The translations under genes were made by a program, and so were the position numbers. Below, one piece after another: positions 1 to 18,707 of a DNA stretch of 64,000 bases (positions are counted from its first letter, which is position 1; each line of letters begins with the position of its first letter). The stretch spans positions 1 to 64,000 of the forward strand of contig NZ_QVLR01000024.1 in NCBI RefSeq assembly GCF_014822185.1, written 5' to 3'. This DNA is from Azoarcus sp. Aa7. Lineage in GTDB: Bacteria > Pseudomonadota > Gammaproteobacteria > Burkholderiales > Rhodocyclaceae. The notes beneath the pieces were generated by a model. The model was not told the origin of the DNA, made no database searches, and was given only the letters and a program-made list of their open reading frames with translations.

Positions 1-170
1 CGAGCATCGAAACCGGGAACCGATCCGTTGGACTACACTGAAGGGTAGTCACTGCAATGACGCGTGGCTAAAGTCCCTGGGTAAAATTCAACGCGCACGG
101 CTGGGTAATTTTGGATGCGCGCCGACACTGCAGCAAACTTTGCCTTTCCATTTGTCTTACTCCTATTTGT

Positions 171-1235
171 ATGAGCGCTTCCGCACTCCATTTTTCCGAT
201 CGTTCGCAGGGCGAACAGGAGCAAAACGGGGTTCAAACGGGGGCTACTGATCGGCAACTGTTTGAATTTCTTGGAGACGTCGCCGGTGAGTGGAAAGAGG
301 GTGAGCGACTTGACGTCCTGTTGCTTCGAGCGCTCTGCTCCTTGTCCGCTGCTCGCCCGGAGCAATCTGGCGAGGGCTTTGACTCCAGGGAGATCGTCGA
401 AATTGTTGGTCTGCTTCGCGGCAAACCGTGGTCGAGCGGGGACGACAAGAATCAGATGTCGGACGACGTGCGCCGATCGTGGAACCGGCTCTTGGAGACT
501 TGGGCCGGGAAGGAGGAAGGGGTCATACAGCGGCTCACCGACGAGGGCATTTCGTCGATACCCTTGCTGCGAAAAACGGAGGGAGGTGGAACGGGCCGTA
601 CCTCACGGTACCGCGTCGAGTGGGTTCAGCGTGATCCAGTGACGTGCGAGCCCACCGTGGCAGCCGAGCGAGCAACGTTCGGTGACGCGGGGACGACCCT
701 CAGATACGTGTCTGAGGACATAGAAGACGCGATCGCCTTCGCGAAAATATTCGCGCGGGGCTACCACCTCACCGGCTTGCGGCGGTGGCTTTACATCGTG
801 CTGTTGGGCGGCCCGCTCTTGATTTCCTGGCTGGTCCTGGTCGATGTGCTGTTTGGTTTGTCGGTTACGGCCACGGTGGGGAGCAAGACTCCCCTTACCG
901 CAGTCCTGTCTGTTGCAACAGCTGCCGTTACGACGTGGCTGTGCGTCGGGCCATTATTGATGCTCGGGACGCACAATATCGTTGTCGCACCGTGGTGGAT
1001 GCAGTCGGTGGATGACGATCGCCTGCTCGAACGCCGCTATCCGCCGCGCTACGCCGACAAGACGATCAAGGCGATCCGCTATACGAGCTTGTGCCCGTTG
1101 TGCGGTGGAAAAGTTTCGGCGAAGGCTGGTGGGTTTGAATTCTGGGGCAGGTTGGTGGGGCGCTGCGAACACGCCCCGACCGAGCATGTATTTTCGTTCG
1201 ACCACGTCACCCGCAACGGACGGTCTCTGCGGTAA
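171..1235 (+). CDS. Unrecognised membrane protein with C-terminal zinc ribbon
   Basis: I do not recognise this protein (354 aa from the ATG at 171). Residues about 70-160 are soluble and have a winged-helix-like look. Two hydrophobic segments follow (about 206-230 and 242-266), then a cytoplasmic-looking tail with a zinc-ribbon-like motif: CPLC at about 308-311, then C and H residues near 332-334. An in-frame ATG at 111 would add 20 residues. Neither start has a good Shine-Dalgarno sequence, so the N-terminus is uncertain. The gene runs convergently toward the defence-type operon with 73 bp between the stop codons. A membrane-linked sensor or effector of the same island is possible, but that is inference. 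The 1-170 stretch upstream shows no supported gene. Confidence 0.6.
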   Translation: MSASALHFSDRSQGEQEQNGVQTGATDRQLFEFLGDVAGEWKEGERLDVLLLRALCSLSAARPEQSGEGFDSREIVEIVGLLRGKPWSSGDDKNQMSDDVRRSWNRLLETWAGKEEGVIQRLTDEGISSIPLLRKTEGGGTGRTSRYRVEWVQRDPVTCEPTVAAERATFGDAGTTLRYVSEDIEDAIAFAKIFARGYHLTGLRRWLYIVLLGGPLLISWLVLVDVLFGLSVTATVGSKTPLTAVLSVATAAVTTWLCVGPLLMLGTHNIVVAPWWMQSVDDDRLLERRYPPRYADKTIKAIRYTSLCPLCGGKVSAKAGGFEFWGRLVGRCEHAPTEHVFSFDHVTRNGRSLR

Positions 1236-1308
1236 GCATGGAGGGGCGGCGACAAGGGGCCCCCACCTGCGACGACTCGGACTACGGTGGCGGCCGGCGT
1301 CTCGCCAC

Positions 1309-4143
1309 TTACTCGAATTCGGCGGTTCGGAATTTCAGTACGCTGCAGTTCTCACGTACTGCCCGCTGAACGCCCTCATCAAAGCCAGCTTCGCTCTCCG
1401 CACGAATGTCGATCGAGATCCTGACCTTGACGCCCGGTTGCGACGTGAACTGCAGCAGGACTTCGTCGACGACATCCGAGAACTGCTTCTTGGCCAGCAC
1501 CGGGTCGAGTTCGGCGGTCGCAAAGAACTGTCGCGTGGAGACTGCCGCGTCTGGCGTGTGCGTTACCGTATAGCGCAGACCGCCGGAGTCGTTCATGCTT
1601 TCCGATGACTTCGCTCCAGGTTCCGGGGACGTGGAAGACGGTTGGGCAGCTCTTTCCCGTTCTGCTTCTTCCTCCGCCCGGAGTGCATCCGCGTAGGTTG
1701 CCGCAGCGGACGGTTCGACGAACAACAATGCAGCATCGAAGAACAGCGACGCCCTGCGGCCGAAGCTGAATCCGACGTACTTCTCCCCCTCGATGCCTTG
1801 GGCGAAGCCGAAGAAGTCGGTGCTCTCGGCTCCGGCCATCATCGTGTGCTGGAATACCGTGTCGTCCTTCAGTCGAGGCAGGTAGAGCTGCTGGCAAGTC
1901 TGCTGCCAAACCTGAAGTGCGCTGACGGCGTTTGTTTCACCCTTCCAGAACCACGTCTTGAGCATGGTCGCGAGATGGATCGGTGCCCAACTGCTGATCA
2001 GCAACTCGTTGTCGTGTAGGACGCGCTCGATTTCCTGGGACAGGTTCGGTGCGCCGGGATTGATCTGGAAATGCTCCCACTGTACTTCCGACAGGCCCTT
2101 GCCGGGGCGAGCCTCCTGCATCGGGGTTACGATCCACTTATAGGTCTCGCGGATCATGCGTCGAACGGTTTCGCCAGCGTCCTCCAGGCTCTTCTCCGCC
2201 TGTCGCGACTGGAACAGATCGAGGTTGAGCTTCAGGTCCTTGATGTCACGAACGATTGATTGCCACGCGAGCATCGACCGGACGTGGTCCCTCAATCGGC
2301 TGACGCTGTCGTAGTCTGGCGCGAGGAAGAGCAGGCGGTTCTTCTTGAATCGCGGCTGCTCCCCGCGGCTCTTCAGGATGTCGCTCGCGTAATCGGTGGC
2401 GAGATTGGGGCCGCCTCGGCTGAATCCGGCGTCGGGTGGCAGGACGACCAGTCGAAGCTGCCAGTCGTCCGGGATGTCGCCACTCGGTGCAAAGACGTGG
2501 ATGCCTCCGAACAGGCTCGACGCGAAGCTGCGCTGAATGCGCTCATGGATCGCGGGCAAGACGTCCTCGCGGTCCTTGAAGCGCCGTTTCCGGTCTTCCA
2601 TTTCCCGGCGTAGGTTGGGGCGGGTGTCGAACCAGAAGCGGTTGTTACCGCTGTTCAGGTAATGCAGTCTGTCACTCAGCCGACGCAGGGCGTCCTTGAA
2701 CAGGCCGATCTGCTGGCCGGGAAGTGCGACGCCGAGCAGCACACGTTCCTGCTCGATCCCGCGCACCATTTGATTCGCCGTGCTCGGAGCGCTGCCCAGG
2801 AACACCGTCCGTGCCGTACGGCGGCAAGCCTGTACACTGCCGAGACGGGTATCGACACTCTCGATGCTCGTCGTTTCCGCACGGTCGCCGTCAACGTCGC
2901 GTTCCAGCACCGGGTCCCAGCCTTGGGGCAGGTAGTAGATCACCTCGTTGCGCGTGTCGGCGTCATACAGCGGCAAGCTGCCGGGCATGATCAGCGGGTC
3001 GTTATTGCCGTCCTGCCACAACCGGTGGATGGCCTTCGCCATCAACTTCAGCACGCCCCGTGTGCGCTGGAAGTTGTCGAGCGACGACCAGTCTTCATAC
3101 AGGCGATCGAACACCTCAGGGTGGATGGGGTAAGCGTGGACCAGGCGTTCCAGATAGCGCCCTTCCTGCGTCTCGTGCGGCAGCTCCTGGCCGTTCGCAA
3201 CGTAGAAGTCCGCAAAGGCACGGCACACCGATTCCGCAGCCTTCGTGTCATCGATGCGGGCGAACAGGCGCCGCCGTACGATCTCGAATGCTTCCTCGGT
3301 GGCGACCGGCTTCCAGATCGCCTGCACGCGTGCGAAGTAATGTTCCAGCGTGCGCAGCGCCTTCACCCCGCGCTGGCTCACCGCCTCCTTTTCCGATTCG
3401 GGCAGCGAGGCGAGCAGCATCGCATTCGGCACTGCCTTCAATGCCTCGGTCAGTGCCTGGATGAAGGAGAGGTTCGAGTCGAAGCTCCCGCCGGAGAGCG
3501 CCTTGCCATCTTCGAACTGGGCGACGTAGCGTACCAGCTCGTCGACGAGAATCACGCAGGGGGCGTAGTGGGACAGCAACTCAGCGAGCACCTGCTTGCC
3601 GGGCGCGGTGCCGCTATCGTCCGCGTGACGGACCTGTTCGTAGGCCGCGGCGCCGCCGAGCTGCCATGCGAGTTCACCCCACAGCGTACGTACCGTCGTG
3701 CCGGCATAGTCGTAAGGTTTGCTCGCGAGATCGAGCAGACGGACTCCGTCGAGCACCACCAGCCGTGCGCGGGGCAGTTCCGTAACGCCGGCCCCGTCCA
3801 GAATCTGCGAGACGCCTTGCAGGTCGCTGGCGGACGTGCCGCCTTTCGCAAGGTGATACACCGCCATCATCGTGTGCGTCTTGCCGCCGCCGAATGCGGT
3901 CTGCAATTGGATGACCGGGTCGCCACCGCGATTCGTCAGCCGCTTCACGACGGAATCGAGCAGCAGGCGCATGCCTTCGGTGATGAAGGTGCGCTGGAAG
4001 AACAGCTTTGGGTCCTGGTACTCGGCAGTCGCCGTACCTTCATGGACCCGCGACAGGTCGGCGGCGAATTCCGCCTGCTGGAAGGTGCCTTTCAGCACGT
4101 CTTCGTGAGGAACGGCGATTTCACGCCACGGTTTCAGGCTCAT
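1309..4143 (-). CDS. DUF499-type AAA+ ATPase, last gene of defence-type operon
   Basis: This 944-aa protein matches the DUF499 family of large predicted AAA+ ATPases. A P-loop (AFGGGKTHT) lies at about 83-91 and a Walker B segment (CVILVDELV) with Asp at about 201. The C-terminal 100 residues carry a low-complexity linker rich in Ser, Glu and Ala, then a small domain. The ATG overlaps the TGA of the upstream DUF1016 gene (ATGA, 4140-4143), so translation is probably coupled. DUF499 proteins often neighbour DUF1156 methyltransferases and SNF2 helicases in defence islands, as here. I infer an ATP-driven motor or switch subunit of the same complex. Its substrate is unknown. Confidence 0.9.
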
Positions 4144-5210
4144 TGTTGTTCTCCCTCCGCATCGGGTACATGCGGCAATGCTCCGGTGCTCGCCCGCTCG
4201 CGGGCGCGTTCGATTGCGCGGTGCAGTTGATTCTGTAGCAGTGCCAGATCGGGAATGTGGGCGAGATATTCCGCCACACGGATGTTCGACGCACCCAGGT
4301 CCATCAGCTCGACCTGTTCCTTATCTGCCCCAGCGCACAAGATCAGGCCGATGGGCGCTTCCTCGCCAGCAGCCCGCTCATTCTTGTCCAGCCAGCGCAG
4401 GTACAGCTCCATCTGTCCCTTGTGCGCAGGCTGGAAGGTTTCCAGCTTCAGCTCGACGGCCACCAAGCGGCGCAGGTGACGGTGGTAGAACAGCAGGTCG
4501 AGATAGAAGTCGTCGGCGCCGACGGTTATTCGCTTCTGCCGTGCGGCGAAGGTGAAGCCGACGCCCATTTCCAGCAAAAAGCGCTCCATGTCGCGCAGGA
4601 TCGCCGTTTCCAGGTCGCGTTCGCTGTACCCCTCGGGCAATCCGAGAAAGTCGAGCATGTACGGGTCGCGGAACACCATGTCGGGGGTCATCTGCCCGCC
4701 CGCTCGCAGGTGGCTGATCTCGGCCTGGACGACCGCCTCCGGTTGCTTGGCCAGGGCCGTGCGCAGGTAAAGCTGGCTGGCGATGCGCTCGCGCAGGGTG
4801 CGTACGCTCCAGCGCTCGATACGGCATATCTCCGCGTAATACTCGCGCTCCAGGGCCTGCTTGAGCGGCAGAATTTCGACGAAATGGCTCCAGCTCAATT
4901 CTCGTGACAGCGTCGCGACAATCTTTTGATCGGGGAAGGCTTCCGCAAACTGCACCATGCGCCGCAGGCTCTTTTCGGCAAATCCGCGGCCGTAGTCGCG
5001 GACCAATTGTCGCGACACCGTCGCGACAATCTGGGTGCCATATTCGGCCCGACTGTCGTCCAACACTTCACGGCGAATGCGGTTCCCTACGCGCCAGTAC
5101 AACATCGTCAAGGCGCTGTTGGCGGTTTGTGCGACGTGATGGCGGGCTTGCTCGATAAGGTCGCGCAGTTCGGAGAGCAAGGATGGGTTGGCCTTGGCGA
5201 GCTTACCCAT
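4140..5210 (-). CDS. DUF1016 (YhcG-type) PD-(D/E)XK nuclease-domain protein
   Basis: This 356-aa protein has the two-part layout of the DUF1016/YhcG family. An N-terminal helical DNA-binding region (about 10-150) is followed by a PD-(D/E)XK nuclease domain (about 175-330). The likely catalytic residues are D238, E253 and K255, in YLDLLFYHR and AVELKLE, with a Gln at about 266. I chose ATG 5210, which overlaps the end of the previous gene by 8 bp; an upstream extension would run into that gene. The stop overlaps the DUF499 start by 4 bp. Family members occur singly and in defence islands. A DNA-cleaving effector of this operon is plausible but inferred. Confidence 0.88.
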
Positions 5211-5868
5211 GACCAGCCGCCTGCCACGCTTGCTGCAAGACTTCATGATCCGGGAGCAGTTCAAAGAACAACTGACTACCGTGCAGAGATCTGCTCAAGA
5301 TATCAACATCGCGTTGAATTTCGTTGTCCAGGCTCTCGTCCAGATAAGCAACGCCGCTGGCGAACTTACGATGCACACTCTGCCGCAAGCTGCGCAAACC
5401 ACTCGCCAGCGCCCGCATTGCCTCGATGTCCGCTGTTTCAAGCGGTATGTTCAGTGAGTGCTGTGCGATCAGCGAGCGGGTCAGGTCATTGTGGCTCAGA
5501 TATTTGTCCCGCAGGGTCTTCAGGTTGGAGCCATCCCAAAGTCTCCGGATGGCCATCTCGTCATCGCCGACTCCAGGCTCCAGAGCAACCAAGCGTTTCA
5601 AGCTGAGGTTGGGCCTGTCGCCTTCTTTCTTGCCGCTATTCTCCGGATCCATCAGCCGGGACAAGCGCATCAACATCGACTCCATCAGCGCCGTCTGCAA
5701 CAACCGAAAAACCAGAGGACTATCCTCCTTCAGCAGAGCCAAGCCTTTTCCATCCGGCTTGAGGAGCGCACGCTCGACGGTTTCCCATAGAACCTGAATG
5801 CCTGTGATCTCCTTCGTGAGGACGGCCCACAGGTTCGCCGCGGTCAGGTTAGTTTGCACTGTCGTCAT
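5203..5868 (-). CDS. HEPN-domain (AbiU2-like) protein
   Basis: This 221-aa, mostly alpha-helical protein has an R-x5-H motif (RDKYLSH, R120 and H126). That is the signature of HEPN ribonucleases, and the surrounding sequence resembles the AbiU2-like HEPN group. The ATG at 5868 lies 7 bp after the DUF1156 stop. The gene overlaps the next one by 8 bp, so it is embedded in the operon and not a separate cassette. HEPN proteins are often RNases or toxins that halt translation on infection. That role here is inferred from the motif and the neighbours. A degenerate structural HEPN is the alternative. Confidence 0.7.
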   Translation of the reverse strand: MTTVQTNLTAANLWAVLTKEITGIQVLWETVERALLKPDGKGLALLKEDSPLVFRLLQTALMESMLMRLSRLMDPENSGKKEGDRPNLSLKRLVALEPGVGDDEMAIRRLWDGSNLKTLRDKYLSHNDLTRSLIAQHSLNIPLETADIEAMRALASGLRSLRQSVHRKFASGVAYLDESLDNEIQRDVDILSRSLHGSQLFFELLPDHEVLQQAWQAAGHG

Positions 5869-5875
5869 GGCAGCC

Positions 5876-8755
5876 TCAAATATCCAGGCTACCCTGCGCA
5901 CCGACCACGCCCGTTTCGCCCGCCGCCTGTTCGATGCTCGACCAGCTCGCGATCAGCTCGTTGTACGCGCGGGCCTCTTCCGCCCAACCCTTGCGTTCGC
6001 ACAGCGTGTACAGGCGATAGGCGAGTGCCCGGAGCGGTTCGGATCGCGTCGGCATGCTGGCGAGCAAGGCTCCAGCGAAAGGCTCTCCGTCGTGATTTAG
6101 GGCGCGGATGAGCTGATGCAGCGCTTCCCAAATAGGGGTGCGCTCATCGGTTTCGGGAGTCCAGTCGGCAGAAAGCTCCGCCCAGCGCAGCAGGCGCAGA
6201 TTTCCCTTGGCACTTTCCACGACGCCGGCGTCGGCCAGTCCGGAAACGCTGGTGCCTTTCGCTCGGGCGAGCACGTCGGCCTCGCCGAACTTGCCTTCGG
6301 CCCAGCCTTGGGCCTCGAACCAGTGTAGGCAGAACTGTGTGTCGTGGTCGAAGTCGTCCTCGGTGAGGAAGCGGTTGATGAGCTGCAGCGCGGTGCGCAC
6401 GCTCATCGGCGTGCCGTCGGCTTCAAGAACCGCGGCGTATTGGCTGAAGATGGCCATGCCGGGGCCGATGATGGCCTGGCTGAGATCGACTGGCGCTACC
6501 GGACTATTGACCCCGCCGCGGGTCATGTCGAGGAGGGCCTCGGGCAGTAGGGCGTTGAGTTCACGCAGAAACTCGCGTCGGCTGACCGTTGTGGCGTCGG
6601 CTTCACGTTTGCGGCAGACGAGGACGATACTCGAAGCCAAGACATTGCTATTTTTTTTCAGCGCTACGGTTAACTCGGTGCGCATCGGCCAAGTACCTGT
6701 GATGGCAAAACCTGCGCGAATTACGGCTTCGAGGAAGGTTTCCCATCCGGTGCTGTGCGTACCTGCCTCGGCTTTGGTTTCCGTCTGTTTGAATGCGTAG
6801 TAGATAGTCACCGGGAAACCCGGGTGAGCTTGCTCTGCTAGGTTGTGGATCGCGCGGGTCATGCCGCCAAGGAAGAAGGCTTCCGCCTGCTCCTTGCCGC
6901 CGTGGCGATAGGGCGTAGCGACCAGCTCCTCAGCCTTGGGTACTGCGAGTGTGGCATAGAGACTTGGGAAGATCGGCTTCAGACTCTTCCTGAGCCAGAC
7001 ATAAAAAAAATCGGACAAATCAGCATAGCCGATGTTGTCGTAATAAGGAGGGTCAGTCGAAACTACCTTCCGTGCAGTAATTGTCTGGGACTGCGCGTCC
7101 CTTTGTACAACCTCACCTCGACCACATGCGGATAGTTTGTCCAAGGCCTCACATAAGGAAACGGCTGTGCCAAGAATGTCACCCCCCGCCCCGGCCAACG
7201 GATTTGTCTCGGCATAGTCCCATACCATCGGCAGGGCCTGTCGCCCGAACGTTCCTCGCAATCTATCCATAGGCGACTCCCAAAAGCAGAGCGAGGAGTT
7301 CCTGTCGGTCGCCTTACTAACCGCAAACGCCAGATACATACCTATGGCCTGCGCATAAGCCGTCGCGCCACTGCCACCGGCATCCAGCCCCACTTCATCG
7401 TCGGCAATCCCCGACGCCAGCACATGTTGACGGCATCGTTCAATCGCTTCCTGCACCAGATCGGAAAAGGTGGTCAGCGCCACCAGTTGGCGGGAGGTGA
7501 AGAGGTCGCCGTAGGCTTTCAGGCCGTACAGCGGCGGCGAGAACCAGCGTGGGTTCTCCGGCATTGCCACTTCCGGCTTCCACTCAGGTCGTGCCCGGCA
7601 CGCGATGGCCTCCTGTTCTTCGTTCGGCGTGAGATAGATGCGACCGAGGGTGCAAACAGCCACGATCGCCATCAGCCGCGAACCCATGCGCCCCGCATTC
7701 GCTTCAGTGTAGATGTGTTGCGATTCAATTGGCGTGTTCGACAGCAGGCACTGGAAATTCGCCCCCCGAGACAGCTTGGTGCCTCCCTTCGCACTGTCCG
7801 GTGGCGTCCCCGTTTTCACCGCGAATCGATAGGTGTGCCCGTCGATGACGGGATCGACATAGACTTCCTTGCCCGCTTTGCTCGACAGCACAAAGGTCGA
7901 GGCCAGCGGTACTTCGGCATGGCTGAAGGCCGGGTTGGGGCTCTTTACGGTACGAGCCCATAACCACGCGATCACCGTGAGCTGCTGGCCGAGCAGCGGC
8001 TTGAGGTCTGGCCGTTCGGCAACCATCTCCGCGGTGACTTCGATCTTCGGGTACAGGTGGCCGATCCGCTTCTCAGCCTCGGCACGCATCCAGGCGCCGT
8101 AGCGGCGAACATCTTCGGCAAGCCCTTTCGCGCCGGACCAGTCATCAGCATAGCTGCCGTCGTACTTCGTCCCCTCGGGCAAGGGACCGATCGGCTTGCG
8201 ACCCGCAAAGCGCGGCGGGATCTCGATCATTGCCTTGTTGATGGTCACCGCGACCGGGTTGAGGTCCGACGCGTAGCTTTCTAGGCCCAGGCGCTGCGCT
8301 TCCAGCGGAAGTGCGCCCCCGCCCGCAAACGGATCATGAAAGGCGGGGAGCTTGTCCGGGTTGAAAAGCTCGGCCGCCCGCGGGTGGTCCTTGTTCAGTT
8401 CGCAGGTCTCGCGCCAGCTGCGCACGATCTCGGCGCGGGCGCGGGCGATCACTTCCTCGTTGTTGGTGTTCTCCCACTTCACGAGGTCTTCGATGATCCT
8501 GAACAAGCGCTCGCGCTCGATCGCAGCCTTTTCCTTATTCACCCCGTACTTGAAGCCGCCGCCCTGTTGGTAACCGGGGTCGTTCACCATCTGCGCGAAG
8601 ATCACTGCTCGTGCAGCAGCTAGCGGCCGCCGTGCCCACCACAGGTGGAGGGTGCTGGGGTGGCCGTGACGGATGGACTTCTCGCGGGCCGAGGCAACGT
8701 TGATGGCGTCGAGGGGGAGGGCGACTTCGATGAGTTTCTTGGGGCTGCGGATCAC
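5876..8755 (-). CDS. DUF1156 adenine-type DNA methyltransferase
   Basis: This 959-aa protein matches the DUF1156 (COG1743) methyltransferase family. The N-terminus carries the family block around [19 protein letters not shown]. The SAM-binding motif DPFAGGG is at 141-147, and the amino-methyltransferase catalytic motif DPPY is at 568-571. Motif I therefore precedes motif IV with a very long insertion between them. The start is GTG at 8755; the encoded N-terminus fits the family even though I see no strong Shine-Dalgarno sequence. It lies 29 bp after the 115-aa gene and 7 bp before the HEPN gene. It probably methylates adenine in host DNA as the self-marking arm of the system (inference). Confidence 0.92.
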
Positions 8756-8784
8756 AGGTGGGTCTCGGAGGGATCAACTTGCGC

Positions 8785-9132
8785 TTACAGGGCGCAGTAC
8801 CAGTCGAGAAAGTCCGGCAGCGCCTCGGGCGGCAGTCGCCAGTACGAGGCCGGACTTCCCAACTGCAGGCGAGGGGCGTTCTTTCCGTTCAGGTTGGAGT
8901 TGCGCGGCGAGTGCGCATTGTAGTGCTCGCAGACGTCCTCGAAGCGGGCAGGAATGCCAACTGCGACGCATTCGGTCCAGAGGAAGACGCCTGTCTTGCG
9001 TTCGCGTTCGAGAGCCAGCTCGCGCCCGCTGGCGGTGCGAAAGCCGGCGATGTATCGGGTGGGCGCACAAATGCGTACAAGCTTCGACGCAAGAATCTTC
9101 TCGGCGATGGCGCCGGTGGTCGTGCCGGTCAT
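8785..9132 (-). CDS. Small unrecognised protein (115 aa) in defence-type operon
   Basis: I do not recognise this protein. It begins [14 protein letters not shown] at ATG 9132, overlapping the stop of the DUF262 gene as ATGA. It has no signal peptide or membrane segment, few cysteines, and a Trp- and Pro-rich C-terminus ending LDWYCAL. The tight coupling on its 5' side says it is a genuine operon member and not a shadow frame. It could be a small specificity, adaptor or inhibitor subunit, but nothing in the sequence decides this. Confidence 0.75.
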   Translation of the reverse strand: MTGTTTGAIAEKILASKLVRICAPTRYIAGFRTASGRELALERERKTGVFLWTECVAVGIPARFEDVCEHYNAHSPRNSNLNGKNAPRLQLGSPASYWRLPPEALPDFLDWYCAL

Positions 9133-10943
9133 GCCAGTGCCTCGTCTTCGTCGGTGATCTGCGACGGCACCGCGTCCGGGGATGTGAGCAGCGTGCGCAT
9201 GCGATCGGCGATGAGTTGGCGACGCGCGGTGATGAAGTCGATGAAGCAGAATTCGTCGTACAACGCCGGGTCTGCAGGCAGACGGTGTCGAGCGAAATCC
9301 GCGGGCGTTCGGCTCGCAACCCAGTCCTCGAAATCCATCTGGTAATACTCGCGAGCCTCCTCGGCCGACATGAGGGCGAAGTTCGCCAGCCGGCTCGCCC
9401 AGCTTTGCGTCGCCGGGATGTCTGCGGTTTCGACTCCGGCGGCCTGCAGTCGCTCGTCGAGCAGGCGGTGAGACGGCATGATCTGAACGAGCTGGAAGGA
9501 TTCGGTGCGCCAATCGACGCGGTCATACAGCAGGCTGAGAGCGGGCTGTCCGAGTCGGGTCTTGGCCTCCGTGGCGCAGAAGCGGGCAATCGTGTCGTCG
9601 TCGAAATCCATCACCCGGCCACGTTTGGTCATGCGTTCGGTCAGCACCCGGACAGGGAAAGCAGTCGACAACGCGAGCTGTTCGTTGAGGATGCGGCGAT
9701 ACAGCTCCATCGTCACGTTTGCTGCGCCGCCGAGAACGCCGTGGTAGAGCACTGCGATGATCCAGCGCCGAATGCGTTCTTCGTCGTCAGGCGTGACGCT
9801 CCATTCGCCGAGCGGCCTCCCGCGATTGAGCTTGAAGATGTAGCAGCCGACTAGCATGACGGCGTTGGTGCCGGTGAGGTGACCACCCGTTACGCGGATG
9901 CGGCTGAACAAGTCGGCGCTCATGCGTAGCGCGTGAGAACTCTCGGCCCAGCGCGATTCGATGATGGCGATGTTGCGCGGCGTGAAGTTGCGGAGTTGGA
10001 ACGCGAAGTCGAGATCGTTGAAGAAGAGGCCAGAGCGCAGGAGATAGTCGCGATCGAATGCCTTGTCCTGCTCTAGCACTTCGCGCAGGTGATAGGTGAG
10101 GGCTTCCGTCTCGTCGCGAGCATTGAGGCGTTCCCAGCGCAGCGTGACCATCGACATCAACAGGTCGCTCTTGCTCAGCTTGGTGCCGCCGTCATTGGCC
10201 CTGATGAAGATGTCGAGGACCTTGTCGTAGGACTGGTCCCGCTCCATGTAATAGGCGATGCAGTCTTCCTTCCAGACCGCGTGGTGCAGGCGGTTCAGGT
10301 TGTTCTTCAGGGTTGTACGCTGGTCCGTTTCCAGCAGGGGATAGAGCGTCAGTTCGCGCTCGATCGTGGCGGCAAGCTGCGCGTCGTTCGCAATGCCGAG
10401 AATGTCGCTGACCTTGAACCAGATCGCGGTCGAGCTGTTCTTCGGGCGGCGCTCGGTATCGACGAACTTGAAGCCGTAGTGGATGTCGCGGACGACGACT
10501 TCGTCCTCGTCACTGTCGCCCAAGCCGTGCGGGCTTTCGAGCAGGTTGAGGAAGAGCGCCTGCTCGACGAAGGCCGAACCTCGCCCTTTCTTGCCGTTTT
10601 TGACGCGATAGCTCCCGGTCAGTCCGATCAGCAGGGACGTGAGACGCTGCTGCCCGTCGAGAACCAGCGTGGCGGCTTGCGCGTCGTTCAGTTTGGCTCG
10701 GTCATTGTGGATATTGCCCTGCTGGAAATGCCGCACAAACTTGTAGATATCCCAATCATTGAAGTTTTCGGGCTGCAGCTCCCAGAACAGGAACGAGTTG
10801 ATCGGGTAGCCCCGCATCAACGAGTCGAATAGGCGAATGATCTGCTCTGTTTCCCACACGTAGGGGCGTTGTATGCCCGGGATCAGAACGTCGCGGTTGA
10901 TGCGGGAAAGAATCTGGGCAATCGTTGTCGAGTGGTAGTTCAT
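9129..10943 (-). CDS. DUF262 (GmrSD/ParB-like) protein
   Basis: This 604-aa protein has the N-terminal DUF262 fold: an [10 protein letters not shown] block near residue 20 and the diagnostic [10 protein letters not shown] motif further on. The fold is related to ParB/Srx NTPase domains and occurs in GmrSD-type restriction enzymes. The C-terminal third resembles the DUF1524 HNH region in outline, but the expected D-H-I-F-P block reads V-Q-I-M-P (about 9476-9490), so the catalytic His looks absent. ATG 10943 overlaps the helicase stop (ATGA). An upstream extension of the frame would lie wholly inside the helicase gene, so I rejected it. Confidence 0.87.
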
Positions 10944-13900
10944 AGATGCAGTTGCTGAATAACGGGAATGGAATTCGGGGGAACCGCGCGGGAGAGCAGT
11001 TCTTCGAGGTCGAGATTGACGCTGGTCACCGCCCAGTCGGGTTCTTGGGCAAACGGGCGGGCAATGTAGTAAGGCCCTTCGTGGTGCTCGCCATCGACGA
11101 TCACGACTGCGAGTACGAATTTTTCGCCCTGGTTGAACCCAGCAAATACCTCGTTCTTCGTGACCGTGATCGTGCTCTGACCCTTTGCTCGCCCTTTGAC
11201 CTCGATGTGTCGCGGTTGGGGCAAGCGACCATTGCTTGCGGGCGGCTGCGCAGTGACGTCCCAGCCGCACTTGTCGCGGGAAACGTCGATCACGTGGTGA
11301 CCAAGGGAACGTTCGGCGTCGATTACTGCATTCATGGCGACCCGTTCGATACGCGCCCGTGCCTGAGCATCGACGACCTGACTGCGGAGGTCTTGCCCTG
11401 TCCGACGCTGTGCGATGAGTCCGGCCGGGATAACCAGAGCGCCGCCCACCACCAGCGGGGTAGCGGAAATGACGTGACGGGCTGCTTCGAGTTCCTTCTT
11501 GCGAGTCTCGAGGCGGGCAGTCAGGTCGTCAATCGTGCGGCGTACGTTTTCCAGCGGCAGGCGGACGTCCTTTCCCGCCGCGATGTCCTCCTGCAGCTTG
11601 ATGTAGCGGTCTGACCAGTAATTGATTTCTTTGACGAGGCGTTCCTGGACGGCACGGAGCGTTAGGTCGACGTGCTTTTGGCGGCGGGTCTTGACCTCGG
11701 CATAGTGATCGGGGACGAGGTGCTGCGATGCGTGAGCAAGCGCAATCTGCTCCAGTCGATGAGCATTGCCGTCATCGAGCCATCTGCCATCGATGAGGTC
11801 CCGCACGAGCTCGAAATCGGCCGGGGCAATGGGCGTGAGGTCGAGGTGCGGAGCCCATCCAGCGTTGCTTGCCTGGCCCTGCGGGTCAATCTCGACGAAC
11901 TGCAGTCGGCGCGAGGCGACGCGAGCCTGATCCGCCCCTTCGCGGATGGCATGATCGAGAATGAAACACAGGTGAGGCTCTGTTCCAGAATCGCCAGGTG
12001 CGACCATAATGGCGCCCTGCTTGAGGGTATTGCGGTTCTGTTCCAGGACGATGTCGGTGAGGGCGTGCATCAGGGGGTGACCCGGATGAATGAGACTCGC
12101 CATCTGTGCGCCTGCACGGTCCTTGAGGCGGACTTTGTCCCGCTCGAAACACACGCGGTCGTATCGGGTCAGTACTGGTCCCTCGTAGCGGTAGTCGCGT
12201 CCCGAGATCACCCGGTCGCGCTCGCGCAGGATGGCCGGGACGTGGGGGATTTCCCATCGCCCGCTTTCGCATGGTCGCAGGTCGCCGCCCAACTGCTTGA
12301 ATGCTTCAGTGAAGAACGACCGAATGAAGTGCGGCTGAAGTTTGCGTGCTTCCGCGCGTTCCATCTGCTCACGGACGGCGAAGAGCCGCTCCGCGTTCAT
12401 GACTTCCTTGCAAAGTGCCTGACGCTCGATGATTTCACGAAGGTGCGCTGTGTTGAGCGCTCCTTCGACCTTGCGGTACAGCCGTTCACGCACCTCCGGG
12501 TCTTCCCCATACCGGATCGCCTCGATCAGCAGTTCCCTGAGGGACTTGTCCTCGAACACTTCCCCGAGGATGTCGAACACCCGCCCGCCAAGAGCTTCGC
12601 GCTCGACCTCTAGCTTCTCGAACAGCCGACGGAAGACGTCACCTTCGCGGGTCTCTGCCGCCACCATGTTCCAGAGATGGCATACCTCGCTTTGCCCGAT
12701 ACGGTGAATACGTCCGAATCGCTGCTCCAGGCGGTTCGGATTCCACGGCAGGTCGTAATTGACCATGAGGTTCGCGTTTTGAAGGTTTACACCTTCCCCG
12801 GCCGCGTCGGTTGCGATCAGCACGCGCACTACCGGGTCGTTGCGGAACTGCTCCTGTATCTTGCGTCGATCTTCACGGCGAACCCCGCCGTGAATCGCGC
12901 CGACAGCCTCGGTCGATCCGAGGACATTCTGTATACGGCGAACGAGATAGTTCAGCGTGTCACGGTGCTCGGTGAAGATGATGAGCTTGCGCTGCCGACC
13001 GTCGGCGTCATGCATTTCCGGAGTGTTCTGGAGAAGACGCGACAGCTCGTCCCACTTGCGATCCTGCTCTGAATGTACGACGCCCTTCGCCTGCTCTTCG
13101 AGCTCGCGCAGGATGAAGATTTCCGCTTCGAGTTCTTGAATGGTCTGGGCTGCAGTCGCCTGATCGACGACCGCTTCTTCAAAGTCCTCGAACGCCTCGC
13201 CCGACATCTCGTCAGCGGCGTCGTCGAGGTTGTCCGGAGTCTTCGTCTTCCAGTTGTCGAGGACCGACTGGCCGCGTTGCCCTAATTTAAGCTGGCGAAG
13301 CTCTTGATCGAGGCGGTGGTGCCGACGCTTGAGCGACTGGTAGATCGCCTCTGGGCTGGATGCAAGGCGACGTTGCAGGGCTGTCAGTGCGAACCCGACG
13401 GTCCCACGTCTGCCTCCGTCTTCCAGCCGTTCGGCACGATTCATTTCCTCTTTGACGTAGGTGGTGACCGCGGCATACAGGGCGGCCTCGATGTCGGAGA
13501 GGGTGTAATTGACGGTGTAGGCGCGACGCTCGGGAAACAGCGGTGACCCGTCGAACTTCAGCAGTTCTTCCTTGACCATGCGCCGCATCAGGTCCGAGAC
13601 ATCGACCTTGTGGGCACCATCGCGGAATTTGCCGTAAAACCGGTCCGAGTCCAGCAAGGACAGGAAGATCTGGAAGTCCTCCTCCTTGCCGTTGTGGGGT
13701 GTCGCCGTCATCAGGAGGAAGTGACGGCAGATCGATCCCAACAGTTTGCCCAGCTTGAACCGTTTCGTTTCGTTCAGCTTGCTGCCGAACCAGTTGGCGG
13801 AGAGCTTGTGGGCTTCGTCGACGACGATCAGGTCCCAGTGGGTCAGTCCGAGCTTGGTTTGCAGGTCATCGGCACGCGAGAGCTGGTCAAGGCGAGCGAC

Positions 13901-14506
13901 CATGAGGTCGTGATCGTCGAAGGGGTTGCCGCTGTGGGAGAGTTGTTCAAGTTCGCGCGAGAAGATCGAGAACGTCAGGCCAAACTTCTCGCGCATCTCG
14001 TCCTGCCACTGTTCGACCAGGCTTCCGGGCGCGACGATCAGTACCCGCTTCGCGTCCGCACGCATGAGCAGTTCGCGAATCAGCAGGCCCGCCATGATGG
14101 TCTTGCCCGCACCGGGATCGTCGGCGAGGACATACCGGAGGGGTTGCCGTGGCAGCATCGACTCATAGACCGCGGTGATCTGGTGAGGCAGGGGCTCCAC
14201 GTTGGACGTGTGCACTGCCATCATCGGATCGAAGAGGTGGGCGAGATTGATCCGGTACGCTTCGGCGGCGAGCTTGAATGCCTCGCCAGGCGCGTCGAAT
14301 GCCCAGGGGCGGCCGGCTTCAGCCAGGGACAGGTTCGCTTCATCCGAGCGGAACAGCATCCGCTCGCGCGACTCGCCGTTGGGGAGCCGGTAGTTGACGG
14401 TGATGGCGTCGGGGCCTACGGGCTCGACGAAGCGGATGGTAACGACGACGCCGGGTTCGATGCCGGTGATAACCGCCTGCTTCCTGATGTCCTCAAGCTT
14501 GACCAT
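10940..14506 (-). CDS. SNF2-type helicase with C-terminal DUF3883-like domain
   Basis: First gene of the operon, 1188 aa. A superfamily 2 SNF2-like motor occupies about 100-640: Walker A (DDPGAGKT) near 129-136, DEAH at 230-233, [10 protein letters not shown] as motif III, and a helicase C domain ending in the [10 protein letters not shown] motif. The middle is helical. Residues about 1060-1170 (RHIEVKGRA and ITVTKNE) match DUF3883, a PD-(D/E)XK-like domain found in restriction and defence proteins. A GAGG ribosome site lies just upstream of ATG 14506. It probably translocates on DNA and couples recognition to the methylase and nucleases (inference). Confidence 0.93.
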
Positions 14507-14967
14507 GATCCTCGGTGATGTGCAGAACAGTCATCGTGTTGGAATCGCCGAAATATCCAGGCCGCGTTCCCCGTCTCGTGGCGATTGACGTTGGTCTATG
14601 CCAAGCCTACCGACACGACATTATTTCAAATTGCGTCGAGTTCGTATGCCCATTTCGAGCAGTCGTTGCGCGGATGCCAGTATCCATCACGAAGTGGCTC
14701 ACCAGGTGAGCCTCAGTTCCTGAGTATAAGGAAAGCGCGGGGGAGGTCGCGTCCATGACACGTCAAAGGCCCTCGAATGCTTATGGTGTTTCTAAGGGGA
14801 ACAACCTTTGTGGGGCGCAACGTCCGGCTCGGTGGTTGCATCTCGATTGAAGTTGATAGGCACTTCGGTGACAACGGGGTGTCGGGACTGTCCAAGAACG
14901 CTTCCCGATACTGCTTGCTGGTGTCACCAATCGGTGATGCTCAACTGCATGCAGAATCGGAGGAGCA
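14507..14967 (+). promoter_or_regulatory. Divergent intergenic region between defence operon and regulators
   Basis: These 461 bp separate the helicase start from the first regulator and must hold the promoters of both. I see no convincing protein gene. Short motifs recur: TCGGTGATG at 14512-14520 and again at 14931-14939, GGTGACA at 14867-14873, and the palindrome TGGTGTCACCA at 14919-14929. They look like operator half-sites for the adjacent regulators. I could not assign -35/-10 boxes with confidence on either strand. Confidence 0.45.
14919..14929. promoter_or_regulatory. Perfect 11-bp palindrome, candidate operator
   Basis: TGGTGTCACCA is symmetric around its central base and lies 39 bp before the ATG of the first regulator. 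Related half-sites occur at 14867 (GGTGACA), 15403 (GGTGACC) and 15441 (TGTCACC), so both regulator genes have them upstream. Binding by the regulators is inferred. Confidence 0.35.
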
Positions 14968-15363
14968 ATGAGTAAGTCCATGATGAGGAAACCGACGGTT
15001 GCCGAATTCCTGACCCGCAAGATCGATGAGTCGAGCAAGACGCAGAAGGAAATCGCGACCGAAATCGGCTACGAGAACCCGAACATCATCACGATGTTCA
15101 AGAACGGTAGCACCAAGCTCCCGCTGAACACGGTTGGTCCAATGGCGTTGTCCCTCGGCGAAGATCCCAAGTACCTGCTGAGGCTAGTGATGTCCGAGTA
15201 TTTTCCGGCGACACTGGCCGCGGTTGAGGATTGTCTCGGTACAACCATACTGACCGCAAAGGAGCACGCGCTGATCGAGGCAATCAGACGGTCCTCGCAC
15301 CATACCGATCCGTCGATTCTGGTGTTCGAGGGGAAGGACATGGTGGGCTTCACCTTGGCGTGA
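14968..15363 (+). CDS. XRE-like helix-turn-helix regulator, copy 1
   Basis: This 131-aa protein begins at ATG 14968 with an AGGAG site 4 bp upstream. Residues about 10-65 form a lambda-repressor-like helix-turn-helix (TQKEIATEIGYENPNIITMFKNG as the core). The rest is a short helical domain ending ILVFEGKDMVGFTLA. It is a paralogue of the next gene, with the same length and the same ending pattern. It is transcribed away from the defence-type operon, so control of that operon is likely but unproven. The small size and absence of an enzymatic domain argue for a simple DNA-binding regulator. Confidence 0.8.
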   Translation: MSKSMMRKPTVAEFLTRKIDESSKTQKEIATEIGYENPNIITMFKNGSTKLPLNTVGPMALSLGEDPKYLLRLVMSEYFPATLAAVEDCLGTTILTAKEHALIEAIRRSSHHTDPSILVFEGKDMVGFTLA

Positions 15364-15485
15364 CAAGGGGCGTCGATGGTCGGGGGGGGGCTTGCCCGCG
15401 TTGGTGACCCTCCAACTTGCGCTACCGATACTGATCGACGTGTCACCGCGTTGGGGGCACGTCAATCTTTCGGGAGGTGTCGAAC

Positions 15486-15881
15486 ATGGGAACTGTCATA
15501 TCGCATCGGCTCACCGTCGCTGAGTTCGTGAAGCGCAAACTGGTGGCCACAGGCCGTTCGTTGGAGGACGTTGCAGTTGAGATGGGGGTCTCGGACGCCG
15601 AGATGTTGATGGGGGTAGTCGAGGGGCGGGAGCATCTGCCCGCGCAGCTTGTTTATCCCCTGGCTCGTTGCCTTGATGTCGATCCCGCGCATCTGATGAG
15701 GATATTCCTGCGTGATTACCTGCCTGATGTCGAGCAGGCGATTCACGACTGCGGCGGCAGGATGGTCGTCACCGAACGGGAGCGCTCCCTGCTCATCGCG
15801 TATCAGAAGTGCACTGCCGATGACGATCCGGAGGTTCTGATCTTTGAGGACAAACAGGTTGTCGCGTTGGCCTTGAAGTGA
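15486..15881 (+). CDS. XRE-like helix-turn-helix regulator, copy 2
   Basis: This protein is 131 aa from ATG 15486, which has a GGGAGG site 8 bp upstream; a GTG at 15477 is in frame but badly placed. Its helix-turn-helix region (about 10-60, SLEDVAVEMGVSDAEMLMGVVEG) and its ending VLIFEDKQVVALALK parallel the preceding gene. The two are therefore a tandem duplication that has diverged strongly in the recognition helix. They may bind different operators or form a heteromer. The 122-bp gap between them carries GGTGAC-type half-sites. Confidence 0.78.
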   Translation: MGTVISHRLTVAEFVKRKLVATGRSLEDVAVEMGVSDAEMLMGVVEGREHLPAQLVYPLARCLDVDPAHLMRIFLRDYLPDVEQAIHDCGGRMVVTERERSLLIAYQKCTADDDPEVLIFEDKQVVALALK

Positions 15882-16457
15882 GGGGGCGTCCGTTGATCGG
15901 TGGGCCTCCTGGTTTGATGCCGGTAGTGGTGCGCAGCGTGCGCACCGCCCGAGAAGACCTTTCTAGATAAAGCCGGGTCGGGAGAACTTCCCTAATTTCC
16001 CTGCCCCGAGCGGGCGCGTAACCGCGCCCGCTCCCTTCCCGTCATGTTCAGGGTGAGCGAAGCGAACCCCCCGGGGAGCCTGCACGCCGCGACCTTCTAC
16101 GAAGCTGTGGGTGTAAATGACAACGGTATTTGTTATGTCAATGTAGGGGGTGAGGATGAAAGAGACTTGGGTTGTTATCCGGGTTTCCTGTTCTTGATGG
16201 ATTCTATTTTTCCATTCTGTGTGATCTCTGATACTCGGTAGGTACTATGTGTTACCCAGTCGCGGTTCGAAGAAAAATGCCCAGAAGGCCAACGACGACG
16301 CGGGATTTGGCTTGCCGGCAGCTGAAATTCAAGTGATGCGCTGCTGGTGCTCATACAGTCAGGAGACGATCAGGATCTCGCGGTGACATGGTTGCGGGGC
16401 GCTCGGCATCTGCTGGTGATCTGCTCGATGCCCGGCGCAACCACGCACTGGAATGGT
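15882..16457. other. Intergenic stretch with two hairpins, no supported gene
   Basis: These 576 bp separate the second regulator from the convergent 369-aa gene. They hold two perfect hairpins: GGTGCGCA/TGCGCACC at 15928-15946, and an 11-bp stem GAGCGGGCGCG with a TAAC loop at 16008-16033. An open frame at 16044-16241 (65 codons) lacks a ribosome site and a recognisable motif, and I do not call it. The middle part is less GC-rich than its surroundings. Confidence 0.5.
16008..16033 (+). terminator. Strong hairpin, possible terminator of regulator genes
   Basis: An 11-bp perfect stem (GAGCGGGCGCG with its complement) closes a 4-nt TAAC loop 127 bp after the second regulator. It is followed by CCTTCCC and not by a T-run, so efficient intrinsic termination is doubtful. 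A second 8-bp hairpin lies at 15928-15946. Confidence 0.35.
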
Positions 16458-17567
16458 TCATGACGCGGATGCGCTGCGCGGCGAAGCCGAATGGATAAAC
16501 TTTCGGTCGAGCAGCCACCTTTGCCGTCTCGTCATCTGCTGCTTGCCGAGTTCCAGGTCGAACGCCTGTTCGGCGACTGCCATGGCGCGGTTTGGGTCGC
16601 CATCGGCCAGCAGCAGCGCATGGCATGTGTGCACCATGTCGGCGTCCGAGCATCGCTGACGGCACTGGGGTTCCTTGAGGGCTGCGCGAATCCTCCCACG
16701 CAGTTCTTCGATCAGCTTCCGGATGTCTTGCTGGCGTTGCCGAGCCGCACGCGTGCCAATCATCTTCAGCAAGAGCATCTCGTGTCGGGTCAGCCCCAAC
16801 AGCGTTGCCTTATTGTTGAGATCGCCCATCGTGGACACGAATGTTGCGGCTTCGTCGAAGTTGAACTGATCGCCGAAGACACGCGAGGCTTTGGGTCCCA
16901 AGGGTCTGAACCCGCTTTCATGAAGCCAATGCAGGTCGATGACTTGCAGATCGTTGCTGGCGGTCTCCTGCTCGTGGGTGAGCTTGGCGCCCCTCATGTT
17001 GAGGTTGATCCATTCGCGGAGGACTGGGGGCATGGCTTGTCGCTCATTGAGTGTGATGGCCAATGCGCAGGCTTGCGCCCGTGCCGCGAGATACCCGCGC
17101 GTGTGGGTTCCGGGGGTGAATGGCCTATCCAAACTGCCGATGAGTGCCAGGAGTGCGGCGGTGAGATCCTCGTTGCTCGTGTCTCTAGCGCAAACCCGTT
17201 CTCGCTGGAAGTCCTCGCTCCGGTGAGGAAATATATATGGAGCGGTCGGTGCGCGGCTGACCGTGCCCTCGGTTGGCTCAGTTGTGGCGGGGTCGCTCGC
17301 AGCAGATTCGGCATTAACGGCGGCGCCCGTCAACGTTACCACTGCGGTCTTTCGTGCCAGGGCTTCAAGATGTACTTGAGGGAGTGCGCCTGCAGTATGA
17401 GGCGCGGGTTTGGTTCGTTCGTCACAATCGTCACCCAAGGTGGCAAGTATCGCGTCGACGTCGATGTGGTCCTCCTCTAGGTCGTTCGGTTTCGATGAGT
17501 ATGCATTCGTGGGGCGAAGATATTCGCGGAGTTGCCCATCACGGCACCAATTAGCGGCCTTCATCAT
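16458..17567 (-). CDS. Unrecognised island protein (369 aa)
   Basis: I do not recognise this protein. Residues 1-110 are hydrophilic, with Ala, Thr and Pro richness suggesting a disordered N-terminus. Residues about 120-345 look helical, with long amphipathic segments, and the C-terminus is basic (MTRRQRWLLDRK). There is no membrane segment or nucleotide-binding motif. The start ATG at 17567 overlaps the stop of the AlpA-like gene (ATGA), so the two are co-translated. That arrangement is common in integrative elements, where the gene after an AlpA regulator can be a replication or mobilisation factor. No such function can be shown here. Confidence 0.65.
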   Translation of the reverse strand: MMKAANWCRDGQLREYLRPTNAYSSKPNDLEEDHIDVDAILATLGDDCDERTKPAPHTAGALPQVHLEALARKTAVVTLTGAAVNAESAASDPATTEPTEGTVSRAPTAPYIFPHRSEDFQRERVCARDTSNEDLTAALLALIGSLDRPFTPGTHTRGYLAARAQACALAITLNERQAMPPVLREWINLNMRGAKLTHEQETASNDLQVIDLHWLHESGFRPLGPKASRVFGDQFNFDEAATFVSTMGDLNNKATLLGLTRHEMLLLKMIGTRAARQRQQDIRKLIEELRGRIRAALKEPQCRQRCSDADMVHTCHALLLADGDPNRAMAVAEQAFDLELGKQQMTRRQRWLLDRKFIHSASPRSASAS

Positions 17568-17773
17568 GCTGCCTCCTGCTGGACCAGGTTGGCCTCGATG
17601 AACGCCTGGATATCAGACAGGCGGTACATGACGCGTCGGCCGATCTTGACGAAGGGGAGGGCGTAGCGGCCGTTGCTGGCCCAGCAGGCGAGCGTCTGGG
17701 GGCGAACGCCCAGTGCGGCTGCTGCTTCGTCACGGTTGAGGAGACGAGGCAGTTCGATGATTTTCGATGACAT
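17564..17773 (-). CDS. AlpA-like helix-turn-helix protein (excisionase/regulator)
   Basis: This 69-aa protein has a MerR/AlpA-type winged helix (LLNRDEAAAALGVRPQTLACW, then the wing PFVKIGRRVMYRLSDIQAFI). The family includes AlpA regulators and excisionases that act with site-specific integrases of integrated elements. It starts at ATG 17773 and overlaps the next gene by 4 bp. A perfect palindrome lies about 77 bp upstream and may be its operator. With the tRNA-Met about 1 kb away, it supports an integrative element at this end. Confidence 0.78.
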   Translation of the reverse strand: MSSKIIELPRLLNRDEAAAALGVRPQTLACWASNGRYALPFVKIGRRVMYRLSDIQAFIEANLVQQEAA

Positions 17774-17849
17774 ATCTGGAACTCCGGGTAGATGCCGCCG
17801 GCTTGACGGCTGCTCGGAGTTTCCTGATATCCACAGTCGGCATCGTTCC

Positions 17850-17864
17850 GACTAAGACTTAGTC
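17850..17864. promoter_or_regulatory. Perfect 15-bp palindrome upstream of AlpA-like gene
   Basis: GACTAAGACTTAGTC is symmetric about its centre, and a further partial copy (GACTTAA) starts at 17871. It sits between the AlpA-like start and the stop of the 245-aa gene. It is A/T-richer than its surroundings, and no T-run follows on either strand, so an operator is more likely than a terminator. Confidence 0.4.
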
Positions 17865-17873
17865 AGTGCTGAC

Positions 17874-18611
17874 TTAATCTTTGTCGGTAGAGTAGTTCTT
17901 CGCCTCTCGCACCGCGCTACGGATGCACTGTTCGACGGCGCGGTGTGAGAACCCGGTTGTTTCCTCGGGTGGCATGCCGATGGTGTCGCGGAGGGCATGG
18001 ATGTGATCCGCTAAACCTGCGCTGTTGAACTCCCCGCCACGAGTGAGTCGGGTAATTTCCTCGCTGGCGACGTTTCTCGCCAGTTCCTGGATCACAAAGC
18101 CCAGGATCGCAAGTCGCTTCTCTTCGTGATGCTTGCCCGTGCCCTCATATGCTGCTGCAGTCTCGGGTTGTTCGGTCGGTGTCGTCGCATCGGGAGCGTC
18201 CGCTGCATCAGAATGAGACTGCGATGAAACGAAACGCACGAGTCGTGAACTCGGAGTGATCAGTCCCCGTTCTTGTGCCCATCGAACTACGTCATGGGCG
18301 CGAATCATCGGCGCGTCTTTTTTGCTCTCGGCAATCGCTCTCGTGAGCAGAATCAAGTCGTCGCTGGCGGATGGGTCGTGAGGGTTGAAGTCGTCGATCG
18401 ATCGTTGGTCGATCGTGTGCGAGAGAGTGATGCCGACCTTCGCAAGCCCATCCGAGATTTTTCCCGGTTTACAGCCGCGAATGAGGCAGGCCGCTTCAAA
18501 GGGTGTCCAGAGGTCGAGTCGGCTGTAGCCGTCCAGGAAGTCGTCGCTCTCGGTAAGATAGAACTCGATCCGGTCTGGCCATTGGGCTTCGTTGGGGGCA
18601 ATTGACGTCAT
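17874..18611 (-). CDS. Unrecognised island protein (245 aa)
   Basis: I do not recognise this protein. It is acidic and begins MTSIAPNEAQWPDRIEFYL at ATG 18611; a GTG at 18617 is also possible. An N-terminal region (1-115) includes LWTPFEAACLIRGCKPG, resembling proteins annotated only as hypothetical in integrative elements. A Ser/Ala/Thr-rich linker (about 120-160) leads to a helical C-terminal part. It is the gene closest to the tRNA-Met, where an integrase would be expected, but it has no tyrosine-recombinase motif. It is probably cargo or an accessory protein of the element. Confidence 0.6.
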   Translation of the reverse strand: MTSIAPNEAQWPDRIEFYLTESDDFLDGYSRLDLWTPFEAACLIRGCKPGKISDGLAKVGITLSHTIDQRSIDDFNPHDPSASDDLILLTRAIAESKKDAPMIRAHDVVRWAQERGLITPSSRLVRFVSSQSHSDAADAPDATTPTEQPETAAAYEGTGKHHEEKRLAILGFVIQELARNVASEEITRLTRGGEFNSAGLADHIHALRDTIGMPPEETTGFSHRAVEQCIRSAVREAKNYSTDKD

Positions 18612-18649
18612 CTGCACCGTGTCCCACGTGACGCGTTTAGTGAGGCGGC

Positions 18650-18668
18650 GCTACCCCAGTGCTACCCC
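18650..18668. repeat. Tandem GCTACCCC direct repeat near tRNA 3' end
   Basis: GCTACCCC occurs at 18650-18657 and 18661-18668, an 11-bp period, about 50 bp from the tRNA 3' end. Short direct repeats in this position can be integrase arm-binding sites. That reading is inference. Confidence 0.35.
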
Positions 18669-18678
18669 GATCGGAAAT

Positions 18679-18707
18679 GAAAAAGGGCTGCATTGCTGCA
18701 ACCCTTT
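18679..18707 (-). terminator. Rho-independent terminator of tRNA-Met
   Basis: On the minus strand an 11-bp stem (AAAGGGTTGCA with TGCAGCCCTTT, one G-U pair) and a GCAA loop are followed by a T-run. It lies 9 bp beyond the tRNA 3' end and fits termination of the tRNA transcript. Confidence 0.8.

Follow-up and report, generated by a model that had tools for sequence, protein, structure and literature searches.

Do the seven closely packed genes at the start of contig NZ_QVLR01000024.1 of Azoarcus sp. Aa7 form a seven-component defence system of a new kind, or do they represent a known system to which further genes have been added? We analysed the first 64,000 nucleotides of this contig (hereafter the window), the first 14.5 kb of which carry a seven-gene unit running from hmaA to hmaC, with all genes on the minus strand. 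The unit is very probably a restriction-like operon of the helicase-methylase-ATPase (Hma) type, also named Type-1 BREX-related (Type-1 BR), in which additional defence genes are exchanged at two sites, the hmaA-hmaB (A-B) and hmaB-hmaC (B-C) junctions, here called slots. The combination of genes is new and the kind of system is known: core and slots have precedents, and what is new is the set of genes in the slots.

All seven reading frames are open, with no internal stops, and in the order hmaA to hmaC they begin with ATG, ATG, ATG, GTG, ATG, ATG and ATG. The junctions, in the same order, are two overlaps of 4 bp, gaps of 29 and 7 bp, and overlaps of 8 and 4 bp, so that recomputation reproduced exactly the four overlaps and two gaps between same-strand genes given in a preliminary description of this DNA. 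The domain assignments made there, namely SNF2/Helicase_C with NOV_C (DUF3883), GmrSD_N (DUF262), DUF1156, HEPN_AbiU2, DUF1016_N with YhcG_C, and DUF499, were upheld by Pfam.

Identity of the core genes

The first core gene, hmaA (10940..14506), encodes a 1188 aa SNF2-family helicase with a C-terminal NOV_C (DUF3883) PD-(D/E)XK-like domain; it matches the PADLOC HmaA model PDLC00659 with 2051.5 bits over residues 1-1177, and Pfam identifies Helicase_C, SNF2-rel_dom and NOV_C. Nearly full-length matches were obtained for hmaB (5876..8755; PDLC00660, 1749.8 bits), which encodes a 959 aa DUF1156 DNA methylase with DPFAGGG and DPPYYDN motifs, and for hmaC (1309..4143; PDLC00662, 1524.5 bits), which encodes a 944 aa AAA+ ATPase with DUF499 as its sole Pfam match and no N-terminal HEPN fusion. 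All three components of Hma as defined by PADLOC are therefore present in one operon, to which the window adds four genes in the two junctions.

The catalytic letters of the core are retained without exception among its relatives, in counts that take in the window itself and no fewer than three duplicates of other loci (L131, L120 and L128). DDPG.GKT, DEAH and the D, E and K of NOV_C are kept in 69/69 rows of HmaA, DPPY in 92/92 rows of HmaB, and the Walker A sequence GGGKT (at residue 83 in the window) in 80/80 rows of HmaC; the same three duplicates were omitted from the HmaC and HmaA trees and from the counts of insert size. HmaB relatives are present in 26 of the 297 genomes searched from the window's family and in 64 plasmid records, with none confirmed in a scan of viral contigs.

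How does this core compare with systems that share some of its parts? DISARM is distinguished by DrmB (DUF1998) together with a DrmA or DrmD helicase; here HmaA scores 394 bits against DrmD, under the NCBIfam cut-off of 610, and Pfam finds no DUF1998 among the seven genes. No PglZ model, as BREX would require, appears among the matches listed for the seven proteins. In the portions of the literature drawn on here, Hma is a candidate system with 1,638 instances in 26 phyla (PMC8565338), a COG1743-DUF499-SWI2/SNF2 operon has been described (PMC7641849), and Hma systems, noted in 2013 and 2020, have been named Type-1 BR, that is, DUF499-centred and BREX-related (PMC12839542). The last of these papers also cites an experiment on the role of HmaA in phage defence and gives a restriction-like (RM-like) model. 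The window has the DUF499 ATPase, the DUF1156 methylase and the SNF2 helicase with C-terminal PD-(D/E)XK domain that characterise Type-1 BR, an assignment made from domains and motifs in which the methylated base is predicted. Although HmaB is labelled a 5-methylcytosine (m5C) methylase in PMC8565338, the DPPY motif of the window's HmaB fits an amino-methylase (N6), as HmaB-type methylases are described in the consulted parts of PMC12839542. The locus falls outside the subset of Type-1 BR in which the DUF499 ATPase carries an N-terminal HEPN fusion; its HEPN domain is instead found in a separate AbiU2-type gene, and its GmrSD-like gene lacks the HNH residues. Judged by these sequence matches, the window's core is the catalogued Hma, or Type-1 BR, system, and the preliminary description was right to see a coupled defence-type operon built on a helicase-methylase-ATPase set.

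On this basis the locus would defend its host against phage with a division of labour among its products. Amino-methylation by HmaB, probably on adenine, would mark the DNA of the host, HmaC, as an ORC-like ATPase, would assemble on or scan DNA, and HmaA, a helicase with a PD-(D/E)XK tail, would destroy DNA that is unmarked. The slot genes would be separately acquired add-ons expressed from the same transcript.

Exchange of genes in the two junctions

The surroundings of the core were compared in 80 related loci, the best 80 of 186 from a pattern-based HmaB scan of a species-genome collection, many of them truncated by contig ends. On mechanical calls of open reading frames (ORFs), and with a junction of more than 160 bp counted as filled, inserts are present at A-B in 54 of the 68 loci that could be assessed and at B-C in 46 of 71. 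Among the 62 loci assessable on both sides, both slots are filled in 34, A-B alone in 14, B-C alone in 4 and neither in 10. The window's inserts total 3.9 kb, and inserts of at least this size occur in 14/62 loci; each slot contains at least two forward ORFs of 80 aa in 8/62, a tally made mechanically, in which some small ORFs may be spurious. Genes lying between Hma core genes have, moreover, already been described as "Hma embedded candidates" (HEC), of which HEC-05 and HEC-06 are GmrSD-like; the sections of PMC12839542 drawn on here report auxiliary PD-(D/E)XK, HNH/GmrSD and HEPN nuclease genes near or inside Type-1 BR loci, and Septu embedded in Hma is mentioned in PMC12255303. With the core matching PADLOC Hma, the preliminary view of a larger variant of an undescribed kind is not supported.

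Ten representative inserts that were scanned consist mostly of known defence families: PtuA and PtuB (Septu), HEC-09 (NYN), HEC-02A, PDC-M61A and PDC-M61B, a Schlafen-like AlbA_2 protein, HEC-08 (DUF3644), HEC-06 (GmrSD) and Ppl. The Septu, HEC-09, HEC-02, HEC-06 and HEC-08 genes thus occupy the same two slots as the window's four genes, but belong to other protein families, apart from HEC-06, which shares the DUF262 domain.

Direct evidence of exchange comes from loci L013 and L130. Their hmaA genes share 95.4% identity and their hmaC genes 94.8%, and two hmaB stretches align at 90.4% and 86.6%; in the A-B and B-C slots, by contrast, there is no blastn match at E 1e-10. Since the cores are nearly identical and the slots unmatched, the slots are exchange sites. 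In the same pair of loci, approximately 550 bp of hmaB just 5′ of DPPY (L013:11145-11695) also lacks a blastn match at this threshold; this stretch is likely a swapped target-recognition part, a label inferred from PMC12839542.

The two slots also vary independently of each other, as is evident from a congener locus (L117) that keeps the HEPN and DUF1016 genes in B-C and carries a different 92 aa gene in A-B. Loci with DUF1016 in the B-C slot are scattered across a quick HmaC tree in which 10 of 28 inner branches are open. The complete seven-gene set was found in no other case among the 80 loci or in 15 stretches from 14 of the 26 HmaB-positive family genomes, many of which are cut by contig ends. 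Of the ordered set proposed in the preliminary description, it is therefore the core that matches known helicase-methylase-ATPase loci, and the order of seven that does not recur among the loci examined. The locus is a clear example of a docking frame, in which a conserved three-gene restriction-like core holds two slots that are refilled with varied defence genes.

The four slot genes

The first gene of the A-B slot (9129..10943) encodes a 604 aa DUF262 protein of the BrxU/HEC-05 family in which the HNH catalytic residues have been lost. It matches the PADLOC HEC-05 model (PDLC04151, 540 bits), has GmrSD_N and no GmrSD_C by Pfam, and aligns end to end with BrxU, a GmrSD-family Type IV enzyme (7p9k; E 3.6e-74). 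The DUF262 motifs QR, DGQQR and FxxxN are retained, reading QR, DGQQR and FIRAN in the window, whereas the catalytic His and Asn of the HNH (DUF1524) site are not: LVQIMP stands in place of BrxU's VDHIYP, so that DH has become VQ, and of the two Asn residues the first is kept and the second lost. DNA cleavage by the HNH site is therefore not expected. The preliminary description had called the motifs of the operon intact, which is correct for the core catalytic letters and incorrect for this site, usual for the DUF262 family; its proposal of several killing arms is weakened by the same loss. An AlphaFold model of the protein was too poor for use (pLDDT 48.5).

How unusual is this loss? In a small and uneven sample of 17 evaluable sequences (the window counted), DH and the Asn pair are kept in 15; DH and the second Asn are lost only in the window and in L044, a Planctomycetales Hma locus in which the DUF262 gene lies directly after hmaC, and both of these proteins retain all three NTPase motifs of DUF262. 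Five loci were left out of the comparison, as a copy of the window (L112), partial sequences (L084 and L090), a duplicate of L006 (L120) or an 18-residue fragment (L151). Embedding in Hma is not as such tied to HNH loss, because four DUF262 proteins in B-C slots (L004, L006, L017 and L130; 26-28% identical) keep the site. The nearest relative besides L044, on an Azospirillum plasmid (L132; 40%), also keeps the HNH site, with Hma genes absent to a distance of 9 kb. Relatives of the DUF262 protein occur in 371 plasmid records, five of which were fetched, and none was confirmed in a scan of viral contigs. The product would thus keep an NTP-binding sensor part and be unable to cut by its own HNH site.

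The second A-B gene (8785..9132) is an orphan of 115 aa without a match in PADLOC, Pfam or NCBIfam. It is a real gene, as demonstrated by a homologue in L045 from Rhodanobacter thiooxydans (43% identity over 109 aa, E 9e-17), which lies between a HEC-09 NYN gene and hmaB, directly before the latter. A C-terminal piece of a further homologue occupies the same place before hmaB in L160, from a genome of the same family as R. thiooxydans. The partner gene varies, being DUF262 in the window and HEC-09 NYN in L045 and L160. Another homologue (L159:9530-9877, minus strand) is found directly behind a restriction gene in a Type I cluster (hsdM/hsdS/hsdR), and for one recognised by profile only (L155) the 14 kb fetched contain no match to Hma. 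Matches were scored in 4/147 genomes of the R. thiooxydans family, of which one (L158, E 4.9e-4) was dropped as false, as it lies inside an unrelated 378 aa reading frame. Apart from the window's own copy, there were none in 369 class genomes or 249 family genomes; relatives were neither confirmed in viral contigs nor found in plasmid or phage scans. A four-member profile gave chance-level matches to Pfam (E 0.057) and PHROGs (E 0.32), as did the comparison with PDB sequences, and the AlphaFold model was too poor for use (pLDDT 41.1). The orphan, which would be a small add-on to the operon, belongs to a family present in Hma loci and beside a Type I restriction cluster, and provides a testable new small defence-associated gene.

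In the B-C slot, the first gene (5203..5868) encodes a 221 aa protein matching HEPN_AbiU2 (PF18734) with 38.8 bits against a cut-off of 26.8. The HEPN motif has the form R-x(4-6)-H, present here as RDKYLSH and kept in one close homologue. HEPN matches were found in 4 of the 297 family genomes, comprising the window's own, the close homologue in L117 (62% identical, also in the B-C slot) and two that are weak; no relatives were confirmed in viral contigs or found in plasmid scans. The second gene (4140..5210) encodes a 356 aa protein with DUF1016_N and YhcG_C domains (PF17761 and PF06250), a PD-(D/E)XK nuclease that also matches PADLOC PDC-S02. Genes 75-80% identical to it are found beside the HEPN homologue in L117 and in the B-C slot of 5/71 loci (L012, L013, L014, L018 and L029), all five without a window-type HEPN gene; L014 is missing from the DUF1016 motif rows through the script's length rule. 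We propose that the HEPN RNase is a likely abortive arm and that the DUF1016 protein would serve as an add-on nuclease.

L117 has further features of its own. Its 92 aa gene in the hmaA-hmaB junction (L117:12508-12786, minus strand) is a different orphan that overlaps both neighbours, by 7 and 4 bp, and has no Pfam or PADLOC match. An insertion element (L117:9951-11171) that carries a DDE_3 transposase on the opposite strand interrupts hmaB of L117; in the second of this genome's Hma loci (L118), hmaB was matched in one piece.

A search of the literature, confined to titles and the starts of abstracts among top-ranked results, found no orphan family of this kind, no HEPN_AbiU2 and DUF1016 pair in Hma, and no HNH-less HEC-05; these may be listed in the supplement of PMC12839542 or in the Payne et al. 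2024 preprint.

Competing explanations and genomic setting

It is very unlikely that the seven genes form one fixed machine in which DUF262 and the orphan would sense and HmaC would license HEPN and DUF1016 to act as effectors. The four overlaps do couple the genes tightly, the HEPN and DUF1016 genes recur together in one congener, and the loss of the HNH site would fit dependence on a partner nuclease. However, that congener has neither DUF262 nor the window-type orphan, DUF1016 and the orphan each occur without their supposed companions, slot contents swap between nearly identical cores, and the full set is absent from all 80 loci, even if many are cut by contig ends. We therefore rejected a fixed seven-gene system. 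Slimmer still is the likelihood that HEPN with DUF1016, or DUF262 with the orphan, are toxin-antitoxin-like addiction modules that stabilise the operon. HEPN adjoins DUF1016 in both loci that contain it, yet DUF1016 is the sole B-C occupant in L012 and L029, the orphan changes partner, and none of the four slot genes has an MNT-type antitoxin domain or a DNA-binding domain by Pfam; as obligate pairs, both combinations were rejected. A further proposal, which we consider improbable, is that in some Hma loci a BrxU-like DUF262 protein, formerly a self-contained modification-dependent nuclease, has become a sensor only: it would retain the part that reads modification and NTP, lack its HNH cutter and signal, perhaps via the orphan, to a nuclease of its host operon, be it the PD-(D/E)XK tail of HmaA, DUF1016 or HEPN. 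Were this correct, restriction of unmodified and modified DNA would be united in one complex, and a Type IV restriction enzyme would have shrunk to a sensing role, with cutting left to a partner nuclease.

A more serious alternative, to which we give appreciable weight short of an even chance, treats the slot genes as defence-gene passengers at a site where insertions are tolerated, linked functionally to Hma by shared expression only. The high turnover of unrelated cassettes is consistent with this, as is the lack of any HmaB or HmaC match in the stretches fetched around seven HEC-05 loci from a phylum sample (L146-L152), of which L146 has a partial helicase match (29%) and L149 shows just 3.2 kb on one side. 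Against it, the junctions stay tight, the HNH-less form of DUF262 is seen solely in Hma loci (2/2), the orphan recurs at the same position before hmaB, and embedding in the operon suggests selection for joint supply. An Hma operon with exchange slots for defence genes is the reading we prefer, and several observations weigh against it. Close counterparts in the same slot number 0 for DUF262, 1 for the orphan and 0 for HEPN among the 80 loci, and for this reason a functional tie of these three genes to the Hma core is weakly supported. Both HmaA and HmaC of the window are on long branches of their respective trees, which means that they may differ from the Hma proteins tested experimentally. 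A promoter scan returned 1 sigma-70-like site where shuffled sequences averaged 2.9, and terminator-like sites numbered 10 compared with 13.4 in shuffles; with site counts below those of the shuffles, it is the gene overlaps that point to a single transcript.

The operon is probably part of an island of foreign DNA, as suggested by a step in guanine-plus-cytosine content from 0.605 (1-18700) to 0.667 (18800-64000) with a tRNA-Met gene at the step (18716-18792). The left end is out of view, as the window begins at the first base of the contig. The 3′ end of the tRNA is not repeated in the genome when up to 2 mismatches are allowed, and insertion at tRNA-Met is accordingly not demonstrated. A small HTH_17 gene is located near the tRNA (17564-17773). 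Divergent from hmaA, two adjacent genes on the plus strand (14968-15881) encode small proteins of 131 and 134 aa that are alike by eye; the first has a weak HTH_19 match, below the cut-off, and the pair may be regulators of hmaA.

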